Origin: Roseibium aggregatum IAM 12614
GTDB taxonomy: Bacteria > Pseudomonadota > Alphaproteobacteria > Rhizobiales > Stappiaceae
Length of the DNA: 64,000 bases
Reading direction: 5' to 3'
Assembly: GCF_000168975.1 (NCBI RefSeq)
Contig: NZ_AAUW01000002.1
Location: 248,001 to 312,000, forward strand
The notes under the pieces: generated by a model
Told to the model about the DNA's origin: nothing
Database searches by the model: none
What the model saw: the letters and a program-made list of their open reading frames with translations, nothing else
In this document: positions 4,764-56,410 of the stretch, piece after piece
How the letters are laid out: every line of letters begins with the position of its first letter
Position numbering within the stretch: the stretch's first letter is position 1
Program-made: the position numbers and the translations under genes

Positions 4764-6338
4764 ATGCAAGCACTCAGCGGCAAAATTCTCATTGTTGACG
4801 ACGACCCCATCCAGCGCAGGTTGCTGCAGGAAGCCGTGAAGAAATTCGGTTACCGGTCGAAAACCGCCGAGAATGGCGCCGAAGCGGTGCGCATCATGTC
4901 GAGCGCAGAAGCAAGCGAGATCGATCTGATCATCCTCGATATGGTAATGCCCGAGCTTGATGGCCTGGGTGTTCTGGAGCGGCTGCGGTCCGACAAGAAC
5001 GCAACGCCGGTGATCGTCCAGACCGCTCATGGCGGCATCGATACCGTTGTCACCGTGATGAATGCCGGCGCTCAGGATTTCGTGGTCAAACCGGTGGCAC
5101 CGGAGCGGCTGAACGTCTCGATCCGCAATCTCTTGAAGACATCCGCGCTGGAAGGCGAGATCACCCGGATCCGCAAGCAGGCCTCCGGCACGCTGACCTT
5201 TGCCGACATCATCACCCACTCGCCGGCGATGGAACGGGTGATCAATCTCGGCAAGCGGGCGGCCGCATCGAACATTCCGATCCTGATCGAAGGAGAAAGC
5301 GGCGTCGGCAAGGAAATGATCGCCAGCGCCATTCAGGGCTCAAGTGACCGCAAATCCAAACCTCTGGTCACCGTCAACTGCGGCGCGATCCCCGACAATC
5401 TGGTGGAATCGATTCTCTTCGGACACGAGAAAGGCGCCTTTACCGGCGCGGTAGACAAACACATCGGCAAGTTTCAGGAAGCGCACGGCGGCACCCTGTT
5501 CCTGGATGAAGTCGGCGAACTGCCGCAGGATGTCCAGGTCAAGCTGCTGCGCGCCTTGCAGGAAAACGAGATCGACCCGATTGGTGCGCGACGTCCCGTG
5601 AAGGTGGATTTCCGGCTGATTTCTGCAACCAACCGGCGGCTGATCGATCAGGTGAAGGAAGGCGTCTTCCGCGAAGATCTGTATTACCGTCTGAACGTTT
5701 TCCCGATCTGGATCCCACCGCTGCGCGACCGGCGCGAGGACATTCCCGCGCTCACCCGCCATTTCCTGGCCCGTTTCGCGGCCGAGGAAGGCAAGCCCCA
5801 GGTGGCAGGCGTCACCGCCGATACGCTCGCCATGCTTCAGGACTATCATTGGCCGGGCAACATCAGGCAGCTTGAAAACGCGGTTTTCCGTGCGGTCGTC
5901 CTGTGCGACGGCCCGCAACTGACGATCAACGATTTTCCGCAAGTGGCCGCCGCTACCGAGCAGACAGCCGCTCCTGGCGTTAGCCACCACCTGCAGGCAC
6001 CATCGGCATATGCGGACAGGTCGTCCGGCGGCGATCTTGCCGCGGCCCCGGTTCGCCCGAGCGAACCCACGGCCACGCCGCATCATGCTCCCTCAGCCCC
6101 GCCCCCTCAGGCAGGCTTCGAGCAATCAGCCCCGTTCGGCTTCATGCGCAACCTCGACCAGGATGGTCACGTGCGCAAGCTGACCGATATCGAGGAGGAA
6201 TTGATTCGTGCTGCGATCAATCATTACTCCGGGCGCATGACAGAGGTTGCCAAACGGCTCGGAATCGGCCGGTCCACACTCTATCGCAAGCTGAAGGAAT
6301 ACGGACTCGACGAAAGCGGCAGCGACGCGGCGGCCTGA
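4764..6338 (+). CDS. Sigma-54-dependent NtrC-class response regulator
   Basis: A 524-residue activator in three parts. The receiver domain (residues 7-125) has phospho-acceptor Asp59 in ILDMVMPE. The AAA+ domain (about 150-385) has Walker A GESGVGKE at 177-184 and the sigma-54 contact loop GAFTGA at 224-229. A Pro/Ala-rich linker leads to a Fis-type helix-turn-helix near the C-terminus (MTEVAKRLGIGRSTLYRKLKEYG). It would remodel RNA polymerase-sigma-54 at enhancer-type promoters. No histidine kinase is adjacent, so the signal is unknown. The start is the ATG before QALSGKILIVDDD; the open frame upstream is not family-like. Confidence 0.93.
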   Translation: MQALSGKILIVDDDPIQRRLLQEAVKKFGYRSKTAENGAEAVRIMSSAEASEIDLIILDMVMPELDGLGVLERLRSDKNATPVIVQTAHGGIDTVVTVMNAGAQDFVVKPVAPERLNVSIRNLLKTSALEGEITRIRKQASGTLTFADIITHSPAMERVINLGKRAAASNIPILIEGESGVGKEMIASAIQGSSDRKSKPLVTVNCGAIPDNLVESILFGHEKGAFTGAVDKHIGKFQEAHGGTLFLDEVGELPQDVQVKLLRALQENEIDPIGARRPVKVDFRLISATNRRLIDQVKEGVFREDLYYRLNVFPIWIPPLRDRREDIPALTRHFLARFAAEEGKPQVAGVTADTLAMLQDYHWPGNIRQLENAVFRAVVLCDGPQLTINDFPQVAAATEQTAAPGVSHHLQAPSAYADRSSGGDLAAAPVRPSEPTATPHHAPSAPPPQAGFEQSAPFGFMRNLDQDGHVRKLTDIEEELIRAAINHYSGRMTEVAKRLGIGRSTLYRKLKEYGLDESGSDAAA

Positions 6339-51454: not shown

Positions 51455-51610
51455 TTGCGCGAATGTTAGCCGAGAACATTCTGGCGCCGCACGTTTTTTC
51501 AAACGCGGAGGAAAAGAATTTTTCCGACCGGATGTCTCCACAGTCCGGATACACATCTGCCAGTCAGGTCTTTCCTGCAAGACCACTGTGCCCCGCCCCG
51601 AAACGGGGGA

Positions 51611-51671
51611 GGCCCGGCAGTTTGGAGTCTGCCGGGCCGATTGACTGACTGGAGGTCATTTTTAGTCAGTC
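51611..51671. terminator. Tandem hairpins downstream of the porin gene
   Basis: GCCCGGCAG/CTGCCGGGC (51611-51636) and GACTGACT/AGTCAGTC (51643-51671) lie between the LacI and porin genes. Neither has a run of T residues in the right place, so termination is only likely. Confidence 0.5.
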
Positions 51672-51688
51672 AGAGTCTAACCATAAGA

Positions 51689-52819
51689 TTAGAACGTGCG
51701 CTGCATACGAACACCGAAGAGGAGTTCGTCCTGGTCGCCCTGAGTGTCGGTGTCGACGTTTGCGTAACCAACGTCAGCACCCATCACGAAGCCGGAGACC
51801 GGCTCCCACTGAACGGAACCGTCGATTGCGTAACGGGTCACGTCGTTCAGGCCAGCGGCGGCGTCGATGTCGGCATAGGAACCGTCAAGCGCGAGGCCGA
51901 TCGTGGAAGTTGCCTGGATGTAGGCGCCAGCGGACAGCGAGTAACCGGTGGAGGTGTCGCCGCCGTTGTAGTCGGCTACGCCGTCATACGTGGTGATGTA
52001 GGACAGAGCGCCGTCAGCGTAGAAGCCCTGGAAGAAGATGTTCGAACCGGAGTTGAGCATCGGCAGGTTGATGGCAGCGCCACCGCCAACTGCCCAACCA
52101 AGGGAGTCTTCACCACCATTGTTGGTGCGGTTGGCTGCTGCATCCGGGTAAACCTGGTGCAGAGCACCGGACAGCTGTGCGGAACCCCAACCCTGGGAAA
52201 CGCCGAGAGCTGCAACGACGTCAGGGGTACGGGTGCCGCCGTAGTTGCCGTATTCACGATCGGAACGGTCTTCCAGAGCGATGGTCGCGGAGAAGCCGTT
52301 GCCGAAAGCTGCGGTGTAAGCGATCTGGTTGGTCGTTACGTCGGACCAGTCACGATCGACGACACCGACAAAAGCCTGACCGGTGAAGATGTCGAAGTTC
52401 GAGGTCAAACGACCAGCCGTCAGACCGCCCCACTGAATGTAGGCGTTGTCCAGCGTGGTGCTGTTTTCACCGTTGGTAACGGTGGAGTAGATGGACACGT
52501 AGGTGCGCAGGGTACCGAATTCGGTTGCTGTGCGAGCGTCCAGGTACAGGTAGCCGCGAGACAGCCAGGAATAACCATCGGAATCGCGGTCACTGAATGC
52601 GCCATCTTCCAGAACGTTGTTGACAACGACCTGGGTACGAACACGGCCACCAACGCGCAGGCAGGTTTCGGTGCCCGGGATGTAGTAGAAGCGTGCGCCG
52701 TATGCGTCACAAACGCGAACATAGTCGACCGGCTCCGGTGCTACCGGAAGGTCAGCCGCCTGGGCGGTGGTGGCAGCAGCAGCTGCGGCCGCGCCGAGCA
52801 TCAGACTCTTGAGTTTCAT
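51689..52819 (-). CDS. Alphaproteobacterial porin (Porin_2-like)
   Basis: A 376-residue outer-membrane porin. It has a signal peptide (KLKSLMLGAAAAAAATTAQA), the conserved mature start ADLPVAPEPVDYVRVCDAYGARFYYIPGTETCLRVGGRVR with two cysteines, repeated amphipathic strands and the terminal aromatic strand ELLFGVRMQRTF. It is probably a trimeric general porin. GGAG 8 bp before the ATG supports the start. Upstream lies a large AT-rich region. Confidence 0.93.
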   Translation of the reverse strand: MKLKSLMLGAAAAAAATTAQAADLPVAPEPVDYVRVCDAYGARFYYIPGTETCLRVGGRVRTQVVVNNVLEDGAFSDRDSDGYSWLSRGYLYLDARTATEFGTLRTYVSIYSTVTNGENSTTLDNAYIQWGGLTAGRLTSNFDIFTGQAFVGVVDRDWSDVTTNQIAYTAAFGNGFSATIALEDRSDREYGNYGGTRTPDVVAALGVSQGWGSAQLSGALHQVYPDAAANRTNNGGEDSLGWAVGGGAAINLPMLNSGSNIFFQGFYADGALSYITTYDGVADYNGGDTSTGYSLSAGAYIQATSTIGLALDGSYADIDAAAGLNDVTRYAIDGSVQWEPVSGFVMGADVGYANVDTDTQGDQDELLFGVRMQRTF

Positions 52820-53546
52820 TACATTACTCCAGTTTCAAATTCGGTCGGAAGGCTGAAGGAACGGATTCGAATACTTTGACGCGACCCCTTCAAACTAACC
52901 CTTAGACTACCAACAACAAGCATTTACTTGCACCCCGTTGGCCGTCTCCGCATCAAAAAGCCAGTTCCAACGCAGGAATTCAAGTGCGAATTTCCCTCCG
53001 GAGAACATTGGAATTTGGAGTCATATTTTTGCAACACATTGAAAATCAGCCATTTTTTACAATTTTTCACTTTTTCATTTTTCCCCTTGAACTCCCCGAA
53101 CTCCATCCCCATATGGCTTGCCCCACACTACTTTAAATACTTTACGAATATTTAGGTGTTTTTTCTTTGATTTGCTTCATCGGAAATGAAGAAATTCGTG
53201 ACTACACTGTTCAGTGTACAGATTACAGAGTCAACGCAATCAAGAAAGAAGAAATCATAGAATTGATTTTGTCAGATATTCCTGGGGTTTTTCGGGGCTT
53301 TCTGAACAAATCAAAATTTGCGATCAGTATTTCTTGAAAACTACAGTCGGGATTATGCAAAACGAAAACCCTCGGGTTTCCTAAATCAGTGAAAATCTCT
53401 CGACAGAATTTTTATTTGATAAAATTGTGATAGCTACTTGAAAACGGAAGTCATTGGGGAAATATATTTGGGACGGATTGCCTGCGCGCGCGGCACCGCC
53501 CTGCCCACGCCCCTCTCCAGCCCCCAATTTCGGAAAAGGAAGTCCC
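52820..53546. other. AT-rich gene-free region between porin and mucR
   Basis: 727 bp, markedly richer in A and T than the surroundings between about 52920 and 53470. It has A/T tracts and many TA steps. It contains a perfect palindrome (53203-53218) and a hairpin AAACCC/GGGTTT near 53368-53384. Short open frames (for instance 52928-53155) have no family-like sequence. MucR-type proteins bind AT-rich DNA, so autoregulation is plausible. Foreign origin is the alternative. Confidence 0.55.
53203..53218. promoter_or_regulatory. Perfect 16-bp palindrome, likely operator
   Basis: TACACTG-TT-CAGTGTA resembles TetR/AcrR-type operators. No such regulator or efflux gene is nearby. Confidence 0.45.
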
Positions 53547-53969
53547 ATGGCTGAATCAGAAGAAGGCGCGACATACGATTCGCCGAACCTGATGGCACTC
53601 ACCGCGGGAATCGTTTCCAACTACGTGACGAACAATCCGGTACCGCAACAGGACCTGATCGAACTCATTCTCGATGTCCACGTCGCCCTGGAAACTGCAA
53701 CCAACAACACACCAACCGTGTTTCGCGCTCCGCTGGTTCCGGCAGTGCCGATAAAGCAGTCTGTCACACCGGAATTCATCGTCTGTCTCGAGGACGGTAA
53801 GAAGTTCAAGTTCCTGACGCGTCACCTGAAGACGAAATTCAATCTGACGCCGGCAGAATACCGCCGCAAATGGGGCCTGAGCGCGGATTACCCGATGGTT
53901 GCGCCAAACTATGCGCAAAAGCGTGCTGAAATGGCCAAGGCGGCAAAGCTGGGTCACAGGAAACGCTGA
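53547..53969 (+). CDS. mucR: MucR/Ros-family transcriptional regulator with altered zinc site
   Basis: A 140-residue MucR-family DNA-binding protein: N-terminal oligomerisation part (LMALTAGIVSNYVTNNPVPQQDLIELI) and C-terminal zinc-finger-type domain (VCLEDGKKFKFLTRHLKTKFNLTPAEYRRKWGLSADYPMVAPNYAQKRAEMAK). The metal positions read Cys80, Asp83, His93 and Lys97/Phe98 instead of C, C, H, H, so at most three ligands remain. Homologues with such changes fold without zinc. The start follows AAGGAAG. MucR proteins silence AT-rich promoters controlling envelope, motility and cell-cycle genes. Confidence 0.9.
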   Translation: MAESEEGATYDSPNLMALTAGIVSNYVTNNPVPQQDLIELILDVHVALETATNNTPTVFRAPLVPAVPIKQSVTPEFIVCLEDGKKFKFLTRHLKTKFNLTPAEYRRKWGLSADYPMVAPNYAQKRAEMAKAAKLGHRKR

Positions 53970-54018
53970 CGCGTCGACAAGGTTTTGAGGACCGGGTGCG
54001 CAATGCTATATTCCCGGA

Positions 54019-54294
54019 ATGGACTTCAGTCAGATGAAACTCAGCCCGCAGGCCCGCAAGGCGATCATGAAAAACGATCCCTCGGCGCAAATGAAGGCCA
54101 TGGTCGAGCTTGCACCGGGAAAAACCCCCGATGACCTGGCCATGCGCGACACCGGCACAGGCGGTCCGGAACTTTTGTCCTGGAGCCCGAATAGCCGCAT
54201 GATGACGCTTCTGGTCACCGCTGAAACTCTCAACGCGCTCGCCAAGGATTCCGCTGTCACCTATATCCAGGTCGGCGGAGCGATGCGGCGCTGA
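54019..54294 (+). CDS. Small protein resembling a free-standing subtilisin propeptide (I9-like)
   Basis: 91 residues, no signal peptide. The middle (MKAMVELAPGKTPDDLA) and the end (MMTLLVTAETLNALAKDSAVTYIQVGGAMRR) have the layout of an inhibitor I9/subtilisin propeptide: a first strand, helix and last strand ending in V-x-Y-I. The same layout occurs in the N-terminal prodomain of the subtilase encoded convergently 35 bp away (VLVELQTEHPPEAFADF, SLPMNRLVELNGHPLVETVEAGRRW). Stand-alone I9 proteins elsewhere inhibit or chaperone subtilases. The likeness is judged by eye. Confidence 0.65.
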   Translation: MDFSQMKLSPQARKAIMKNDPSAQMKAMVELAPGKTPDDLAMRDTGTGGPELLSWSPNSRMMTLLVTAETLNALAKDSAVTYIQVGGAMRR

Positions 54295-54329
54295 GGGCGC
54301 CGCATCCTGTTATCAAAACGTCCAGACAA

Positions 54330-56243
54330 TCAGATCACAGCGTCCGTGCGTCCGGGCTGATCCGGATCGCGCAAGAGACGCAGGGCGCGCGCAGCGTTCA
54401 CCCTGCCGAAACCCCATGCGACGTCGAACCCCGGCGTGCCGTCGGGATTGTCCGACGTGGCCATGAGAATGTTTGCTACCTGAGGCGCTGACAGGGACCG
54501 GGCTTCCTGAAACAGCAAGGCGACGATACCGGCAACATGGGGCGCAGCCATGCTGGTGCCGGATTTGGGCACCCGCACCGGATGGACCCCGCCATTGCCA
54601 TTGCTCCGCCCGCCTTGCGCGCCGGACGCAACGATGTTCGTTCCAGGTGCGGCAACTTCGGGCTTGTACCGGTTGTCCCGTGTCGGACCCCGGCTGGACG
54701 AGGCCGCTGGCGCCAGAGAATGGTGGCTGTAATTCGCAACGGCAATCGCCCGCCGTGTTGTCGCCGGCGTGCCAAGCGTGCGGACAGGATCGAAATCGCC
54801 TCCCTGGAAAAAGGATTGGTCGGCATAATTATTGTTCTTGTCCCGCAGGTCACGTTCGATCCAGGCATCGAACTGCCCGTTCTCCCCTTCCAGCGCCTCC
54901 AGCTTCACGGTCCAGACGCCGGATCTGAGCATGCCGAGTCCGAACGGCGCTTCCAGTTGCATGTAGATCCGCGCTTGCCCGTTCAAACTCGAAAACCGCT
55001 CCGAATCGATGAAGACCTCATCTTGAAGCAGGGATTTTCCGGGGTTTACGGGCCCGTATTGTGTCCCGTCCGGTGCAATCAAGGTCACTGCGAACCTGTC
55101 GACACTGGAATACCAGATCTCCAGTTCACTCGACGTCCTGTCCGTTCCCGTCTGGGTGACGGAGCCATCGGGCAAAGGCATGCCGCCACCCGTTTTCCAG
55201 CGCAGTTCCCGGCTTTCGCCCGTCTTGATTCTCCCTGCCGCATGCCCATGCCAGACGTGCTCGTTGCCCGCCGCGCTCACGAACGCCCGTCCCAACGGCT
55301 CCAGAAGCCGGTCGATGGCCCGTTCGACGAGGCTTTCCCCGTCATGGCTACCCCCGTTCTGCCCGAGGCTCATATTGATGACGCAAGGCATGTCGAGCGC
55401 ATCCGCCTTGCCCATGATGTAGGCGACTGCATCAACGACATGGCTGGAATCGGTGAAGGTATTCGACCCGTCGCGCGTGTCCGGCTGAACGAAAATCAGC
55501 GTGGCTTCGGGGGCGGCTCCCAGATGTGTGCCTTCCGCAAAATTATCATCATGCGACCTGCCATTGCCTGCCGCGATGCCGGCAACATGCGTGCCGTGCG
55601 AGCCGGCCTCCGCCCTGTGGCGGACAACGCTGAAGGGATCGGTTGCGTTCAGCGCCTGGTTGATCTGGTCGGCCCCATATTCCACCCCATAGGCGAAATC
55701 ATCCGGTGCACGCTCGCCCTGCCGGGCATCCAGGCGCTGGTCCCAGAGAAAAGCCAGCCGCGTGGTGCCGTCCGGGTTGCGGAAGTCGTCAAGCGTGAAA
55801 TCCATACCGTAGTCGATGATGCCGACCAGAACGCCTGCGCCCATGCGCCCCGGAACCCCGGAACTGCCCTGATGAACCGTATCGGCCTTCGTTTCGGCAA
55901 GGGAACTCTCCAGCATCGGGAACCAGCGCCGTCCGGCCTCAACCGTTTCGACCAGCGGGTGCCCGTTCAGCTCCACCAGGCGGTTCATGGGAAGCGACAC
56001 GGAATAGATCTTCCCGGCCACATGCACCCAGTTGAAATCGGCAAAAGCCTCTGGGGGATGCTCCGTCTGAAGTTCGACGAGAACGCGCCTGACTTCGCCA
56101 AGCGGGGCCGAACCGGCCGAAGCGCTCTCCAGGGATTCGGGAGCGGACGGGGAGACGTCGAGGTTGGTTTCGTCTTCAAATGATTTCAATTCCGCCTCGG
56201 CTGCATACCGGCGCAGCCTCGGATCAAGTTTCTTTAATTGCAT
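54330..56243 (-). CDS. S8-family serine peptidase (subtilase) with I9-like prodomain and inserted beta domain
   Basis: 637 residues, no signal peptide, so probably cytoplasmic. A prodomain-like region (about 52-110) precedes the catalytic domain: Asp144 in VGIIDYGMDF, His216 in SHGTHVAGIAAGNG, oxyanion region VINMSLGQNGG and Ser564 in SGTSMAAPHVAGIVALLF. Between AGNEHVWHG and the Ser block lies an extra ~150-residue beta-rich insert (RFAVTLIAPDGTQYGPVNPGKS onward), a layout that recalls the jelly-roll insert of Csp-type subtilases. GGAGG 6 bp before the ATG at 56243 sets the start. Confidence 0.9.
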   Translation of the reverse strand: MQLKKLDPRLRRYAAEAELKSFEDETNLDVSPSAPESLESASAGSAPLGEVRRVLVELQTEHPPEAFADFNWVHVAGKIYSVSLPMNRLVELNGHPLVETVEAGRRWFPMLESSLAETKADTVHQGSSGVPGRMGAGVLVGIIDYGMDFTLDDFRNPDGTTRLAFLWDQRLDARQGERAPDDFAYGVEYGADQINQALNATDPFSVVRHRAEAGSHGTHVAGIAAGNGRSHDDNFAEGTHLGAAPEATLIFVQPDTRDGSNTFTDSSHVVDAVAYIMGKADALDMPCVINMSLGQNGGSHDGESLVERAIDRLLEPLGRAFVSAAGNEHVWHGHAAGRIKTGESRELRWKTGGGMPLPDGSVTQTGTDRTSSELEIWYSSVDRFAVTLIAPDGTQYGPVNPGKSLLQDEVFIDSERFSSLNGQARIYMQLEAPFGLGMLRSGVWTVKLEALEGENGQFDAWIERDLRDKNNNYADQSFFQGGDFDPVRTLGTPATTRRAIAVANYSHHSLAPAASSSRGPTRDNRYKPEVAAPGTNIVASGAQGGRSNGNGGVHPVRVPKSGTSMAAPHVAGIVALLFQEARSLSAPQVANILMATSDNPDGTPGFDVAWGFGRVNAARALRLLRDPDQPGRTDAVI

Positions 56244-56410
56244 GGATGCCTCCATCGCAGGAAAAACAAAGTCAGAAAAACCCGGCCAGCATATCACGAA
56301 AGGCGAAGTTTTTCGGCCTGCACGTCACGTAGGTCACCTCTTGTGAACCCGGATCGCATTCTCTTCTCGGATGAATGGTCAAACCTGTTTTTCGGGCTTA
56401 CTCTCACCCC

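Follow-up and report, generated by a model that had tools for sequence, protein, structure and literature searches.

The window analysed here is a 64,000-nt stretch of the Roseibium aggregatum IAM 12614 genome (contig NZ_AAUW01000002.1), and all coordinates given without a locus name refer to it. Two genes in this window lie tail to tail, 35 bp apart. The first is a small ORF on the forward strand (54019..54294) that codes for a 91-aa protein, a predicted trans inhibitor on the basis of a family profile, an AF2 fold and gene co-occurrence. The second, on the reverse strand (54330..56243), codes for a 637-aa, CspB-like subtilase of family S8 without a leader peptide; it begins with an ATG start codon and is preceded by GGAGG. 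An earlier note on this DNA, made from the sequence alone, had placed the two ORFs, their orientation and their spacing correctly.

A promoter-like site (TTGAGG-16-TATATT) is found on the forward strand at 53985..54012, ending 6 nt before the ATG of the 91-aa gene, and a TG precedes its second hexamer. It is the sole such match between 53400 and 56500, where 0.8 would be expected. Both TGCTATATT and the 6-nt distance to the ATG are identical in three of three Stappiaceae, and this constancy suggests that the small gene has its own transcript, likely a leaderless one. At the other end of the gene, a hairpin (54282..54306, no strand assigned) covers the stop codon and reaches into the intergenic gap. 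Three genomes preserve its stem, one base pair having changed in a compensatory way (C-G to T-A), and the structure is a possible candidate for a transcription stop common to both genes; it carries no T-run and is not called by a terminator scan.

The pair is flanked in the window by genes for a MucR-type regulator and a histidine kinase. In three congeners without the pair, the genes for a LacI protein and the histidine kinase are about 500 bp apart, whereas in the window (about 51600-56300) an extra 4.4 kb or so, carrying a porin gene, the MucR-type regulator, the small gene and the subtilase, lies between them. The difference in spacing indicates gain or loss of this region, whether in a single event or in several.

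Features of the subtilase

The enzyme is assigned to family S8 by its match to PF00082 (E 8.3e-37) and by an intact Asp-His-Ser catalytic triad. The codons for Asp144 (GIIDYG motif, 55812..55814), His216 (HGTHVAG, 55596..55598) and Ser564 (GTSMAAP, 54552..54554), all on the reverse strand, specify residues that are invariant among ten relatives. The closest solved structure is that of the clostridial CspB protease (4i0w_B, E 3.1e-40); the sequence alignment covers residues 134-579 and includes the jellyroll insert region. The subtilase falls below the NCBIfam cut-offs for the Csp germination proteases (CspBA, 163 bits against 1250; CspC, 109 against 675). An AF2 model of the enzyme built from three sequences was unusable (pLDDT 33).

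No export signal is present. The sequence has no stretch resembling a signal peptide or a membrane segment, as the 19-residue Kyte-Doolittle mean never exceeds 1.1 and its N-terminal maximum is 0.45, which agrees with the earlier claim that the enzyme lacks a signal peptide. The core of a cis prodomain, delimited by alignment to the prodomains of relatives, spans approximately residues 49-110 (55914..56099, reverse strand), and the subtilases of the other partnered loci likewise retain their own cis prodomain. The known defence subtilase IetS gave only weak, partial matches to the window enzyme. A generic PADLOC model named 'subtilase' matched it more strongly (4.6e-39) but is not specific to any system. 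The IetAS combination of an IetS-type subtilase with an IetA ATPase was not found, the neighbours in the window being the MucR-type regulator and the histidine kinase.

Sequence relationship of the 91-residue protein to subtilase prodomains

A likeness between the small protein and the prodomain of its neighbour had been noticed by eye. In a direct local alignment with the N-terminal region of the subtilase, the 91-mer scores 28, compared with 25.7 ± 4.4 for shuffled sequences (p 0.28, z 0.5). The pairwise likeness is at chance level, and the by-eye argument would not have been enough on its own; the relationship was recovered through a profile of relatives and through the predicted fold. That the 91-mer might be a recent copy of the prodomain of its own enzyme is unsupported in the window, the pairwise alignment being no better than chance. 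Searches of Pfam, NCBIfam, PADLOC and PHROGs with the 91-mer returned no match, and it gave none at the gathering score of PF05922, the profile of peptidase inhibitor I9 (MEROPS I9).

Relatives of the small protein, described further below, allowed more sensitive comparisons. A profile built from nine members outside the Stappiaceae was run against the 878 ORFs of the window and ranked the small ORF first (E 0.004), and among 9090 scored shuffles one equalled its score. By E-value, the probable membership of the window protein in the family is therefore modestly supported. The subtilase of the window ranked second of the 878, at an E of only 3. A profile made from four plasmid ORFs recovered more copies and also the N-terminal prodomains of distant subtilases (L017, E 2.8e-5; L041, E 2.6e-3).

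When the small family was aligned with S8 prodomains profile to profile (hhalign), probabilities of 83-96 and E-values of 9e-6 to 1e-8 were obtained with five groupings of the sequences. At three loci (G270, G614 and G810) the small protein also resembles the prodomain of its own enzyme in pairwise comparison (z 3.6, 5.2 and 4.5, respectively). The family is thus homologous to S8 prodomains by sequence profile, a link that the window member shares through the family only. A profile of the small protein limited to Stappiaceae reached neither the wider family nor the prodomains, since the sequences are too few and too similar. Two of the twelve family members match PF05922 weakly and unprompted, with a best E of 0.038. 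All members end 12-18 residues past the last conserved Val/Ile, roughly the place at which a processed propeptide ends in subtilisin.

Predicted fold

The AF2 model of the 91-mer (pLDDT 77.4) has the topology of a subtilase propeptide, although the first helix between strands is just three residues long. A Foldseek search of the PDB with this model returned a subtilisin propeptide at rank 1 (probability 1.00, E 0.028), and in a VIA-align comparison with the PDB the top 22 rows were all subtilase prodomains. POIA1, a fungal stand-alone inhibitor of the I9 type, is also among the PDB matches (Z 6.0). The scores are moderate, with E never below 0.001 and Z no higher than 7.5, a Z range within the reach of common folds. 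Since no single fold score is strong, what counts is the identity of the highest-ranked families, and these are subtilase propeptides, in keeping with the I9-like fold that had been proposed for the 91-mer.

Family members, distribution and co-occurrence

The small-protein family comprises twelve members, and in 11 of the 12 the gene lies at the 3' end of a gene for a leaderless, CspB-like S8 subtilase. Partnered loci occur in Stappiaceae, on plasmids of Rhizobiaceae, in Sphingobium and in three further lineages, making about six in total. The gap between the two genes is 33-205 bp, depending on the start codons chosen. Both genes share a strand outside the Stappiaceae; members of the Stappiaceae have the small gene in the opposite orientation, again at the 3' end of the subtilase gene. 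The genes around the pair vary between loci, and the pair itself is conserved.

A search of plasmids with the subtilase found homologues on those of Rhizobium, Agrobacterium and Sphingobium, several of them followed by an ORF of 84-92 aa. The first rhizobial and Sphingobium small genes were recognised by their position; the members found by profile are those of R. etli Mim1, G270, G614, G810 and Leisingera only. In a sample of the class (n = 385), the subtilase search led to G270, and so, separately, did the small-protein profile, with the two hits lying next to each other. In a sample of the phylum (n = 398), a subtilase profile added G614 and G810, each with the small gene directly downstream (E 4.6e-13 and 4.3e-18, respectively). 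A further match in G470 (E 1.8e-4), a genome in which no subtilase was found, was excluded from the family as unproven.

The earlier note had made its reading depend on the two genes occurring together in other genomes, and they do. Among 87 genomes of the bacterial family, both genes are present in the same three, close relatives of one another, where they are adjacent and convergent, and neither is found in the other 84. All 11 of the 11 close relatives of the subtilase are paired. No small gene was detected next to any of the more distant subtilases that were inspected, and the subtilases seen in phage records and viral contigs were all distant ones that likewise lack it. A single origin of the pairing is not established: in the tree the Stappiaceae subtilases branch off at an open fork, away from the remaining partnered enzymes, and the partnerless subtilases of Paenibacillus and of a viral contig (L058) fall among the partnered ones from outside the Stappiaceae.

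Several loci have other neighbours. On the L058 contig (4317-6961), a subtilase gene of this group lacks the small partner and has a SIR2-like ORF after it. A Leisingera plasmid (L038) carries a small-family gene (5950-6216) flanked by IS elements, with IS110 and IS481 transposases downstream; no subtilase is present within the stretch read. On four rhizobial plasmids (L015, 4452-8569; L016; L022, 4419-8638; L024, 3452-7665) a conserved PLD-like gene comes after the pair. These PLD-like genes are 60-95% identical, and a CHAT protein is encoded upstream in one locus. The PLD-like gene was considered as a fixed third part and rejected, being confined to these four plasmids. Three distant subtilases on rhizobial plasmids, without the small gene (L017, 4740-8143; L021, 4515-7960; L042, 3386-6867) overlap or abut a gene for an MBL-fold protein, and one of them also adjoins a Shedu-type gene.

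Proposed function and alternatives

We propose that the 91-mer, homologous to subtilase prodomains but encoded as a protein of its own, is dedicated to inhibiting in trans the cytoplasmic, CspB-like subtilase of the adjacent gene, with a probability of about 0.62 in our estimate. The data support the suggestion, made in the earlier note, of an intracellular protease paired with a free-standing propeptide homologue as its inhibitor or folding helper. The 91-mer would dock on the subtilase in the manner of a prodomain and plug the active-site groove with its C-terminal tail, the 12-18 residues past the last conserved Val/Ile, in the way a reaction product would. It would keep the enzyme off, either in addition to the cis prodomain or once that has been lost, and the enzyme would be freed when the 91-mer is degraded, diluted or displaced. 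The inhibitor of Stappiaceae probably has its own promoter, judging from the conserved upstream site, so that its supply would be separate from that of the enzyme. There is a precedent in CspB, where the prodomain supplied in trans restores folding and also blocks the active site via its last three residues (PMC3567191). Against this proposal must be weighed that the enzyme has a prodomain of its own, that the window 91-mer is not directly similar to it, and that the Leisingera small gene has no subtilase in the stretch read.

The contexts of some plasmid loci only hint at a toxin-antidote or phage-defence role, in which the subtilase would act as effector of cell suicide, with the small protein as its antidote until infection or stress removes it. 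The distribution is patchy (three of the 87 genomes), many copies are on plasmids, and the block has been gained or lost between conserved neighbours. To these may be added, from rhizobial plasmids, the PLD-like gene adjoining the pair in four cases and the CHAT gene upstream in one of them, and the MBL, Shedu or SIR2-like genes that adjoin distant subtilases. However, such hints are absent from the window, where the flanking genes are those for the MucR-type regulator and histidine kinase, no third gene is common to the loci, and the PLD-like gene is limited to rhizobia. The IetS matches are weak and partial, and the stronger PADLOC match is not system-specific. We consider this role unlikely. 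The same holds for its broadest form, a widespread bacterial module in which a cytoplasmic CspB-like protease and a prodomain antidote, removed on infection or stress, would bring about programmed proteolysis, with a PLD-like effector added in some lineages.

Alternatively, the small protein could serve mainly as a folding chaperone for the subtilase in trans, inhibition being incidental. Prodomains are folding aids, CspB made without its prodomain can be refolded by the prodomain in trans (PMC3567191), and the two genes are adjacent in all close relatives. But the paired enzymes keep their own cis prodomain, and in Stappiaceae the convergent arrangement and the distinct promoter give no hint of co-translation. 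With a cis prodomain present in the enzyme already, an inhibitor has better support than a folding helper, and we regard a primarily chaperone role as rather improbable.

Very unlikely is the reading that chance placed an unrelated protein of ferredoxin-like fold next to the Stappiaceae subtilase: it would fit the absence of direct pairwise similarity and of a Pfam match of its own, as well as the middling fold-search scores and the commonness of ferredoxin-like folds, but not the first rank among 878 ORFs with the profile of relatives, the dominance of subtilase propeptides at the top of the fold search, the unprompted PF05922 matches of two relatives (best E 0.038), or the position at the subtilase 3' end, which is the same as in other lineages.

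Comparison with known systems

Trans inhibition by the 91-mer would have parallels among the stand-alone I9 mimics, of which Pleurotus POIA1, yeast proteinase B inhibitor, Arabidopsis SPI-1, Toxoplasma MIC5 and Plasmodium SUB1-ProM have been listed (PMC6993865). Like the 91-mer, these are small, free-standing proteins with a subtilisin-propeptide fold, they inhibit subtilases, and the SUB1-ProM gene also adjoins subtilase genes (PMC6993865). All those listed are eukaryotic (fungal, plant or apicomplexan), whereas the 91-mer is bacterial and cytoplasmic, with a CspB-like partner and a role as inhibitor that is predicted. For the enzyme, CspB is both the nearest solved and the nearest characterised relative (PMC3567191, PDB 4i0w). 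The CspB prodomain stays bound, its last residues blocking the active site, and it does likewise in trans (PMC3567191), but it comes from the same gene only, whereas the window pair has a second, separate gene.

Three bacterial systems share the arrangement of a protease and a dedicated inhibitor. In Streptococcus pyogenes, according to work cited in PMC2873492, the protease gene speB lies beside the gene for Spi, an inhibitor that is an analogue of the propeptide; SpeB is a secreted C10 cysteine protease, and fold and family are unrelated to those of the window pair. The protealysin-emfourin operon of Serratia proteamaculans combines an intracellular protease with an adjoining gene for its dedicated inhibitor, although protealysin is an M4 metalloprotease and emfourin is not described as a propeptide homologue in PMC9505478. 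Bacillus subtilis has an intracellular subtilisin, Isp1, with a dedicated intracellular inhibitor, IPI, but the fold of the latter is Ig-like (PMC3901451), in contrast to the propeptide fold of the 91-mer model. In the open-access literature, to which the search was confined (subscription papers being outside it), we found no report of a bacterial stand-alone subtilase-propeptide partner. Devices of this kind are known; what appears to be new is the combination, a stand-alone propeptide partner for a bacterial subtilase.

A bacterial pair kept across lineages would offer a simple two-protein system in which to follow the change of a prodomain into a regulator in its own right. It also draws attention to a class of cytoplasmic subtilases.
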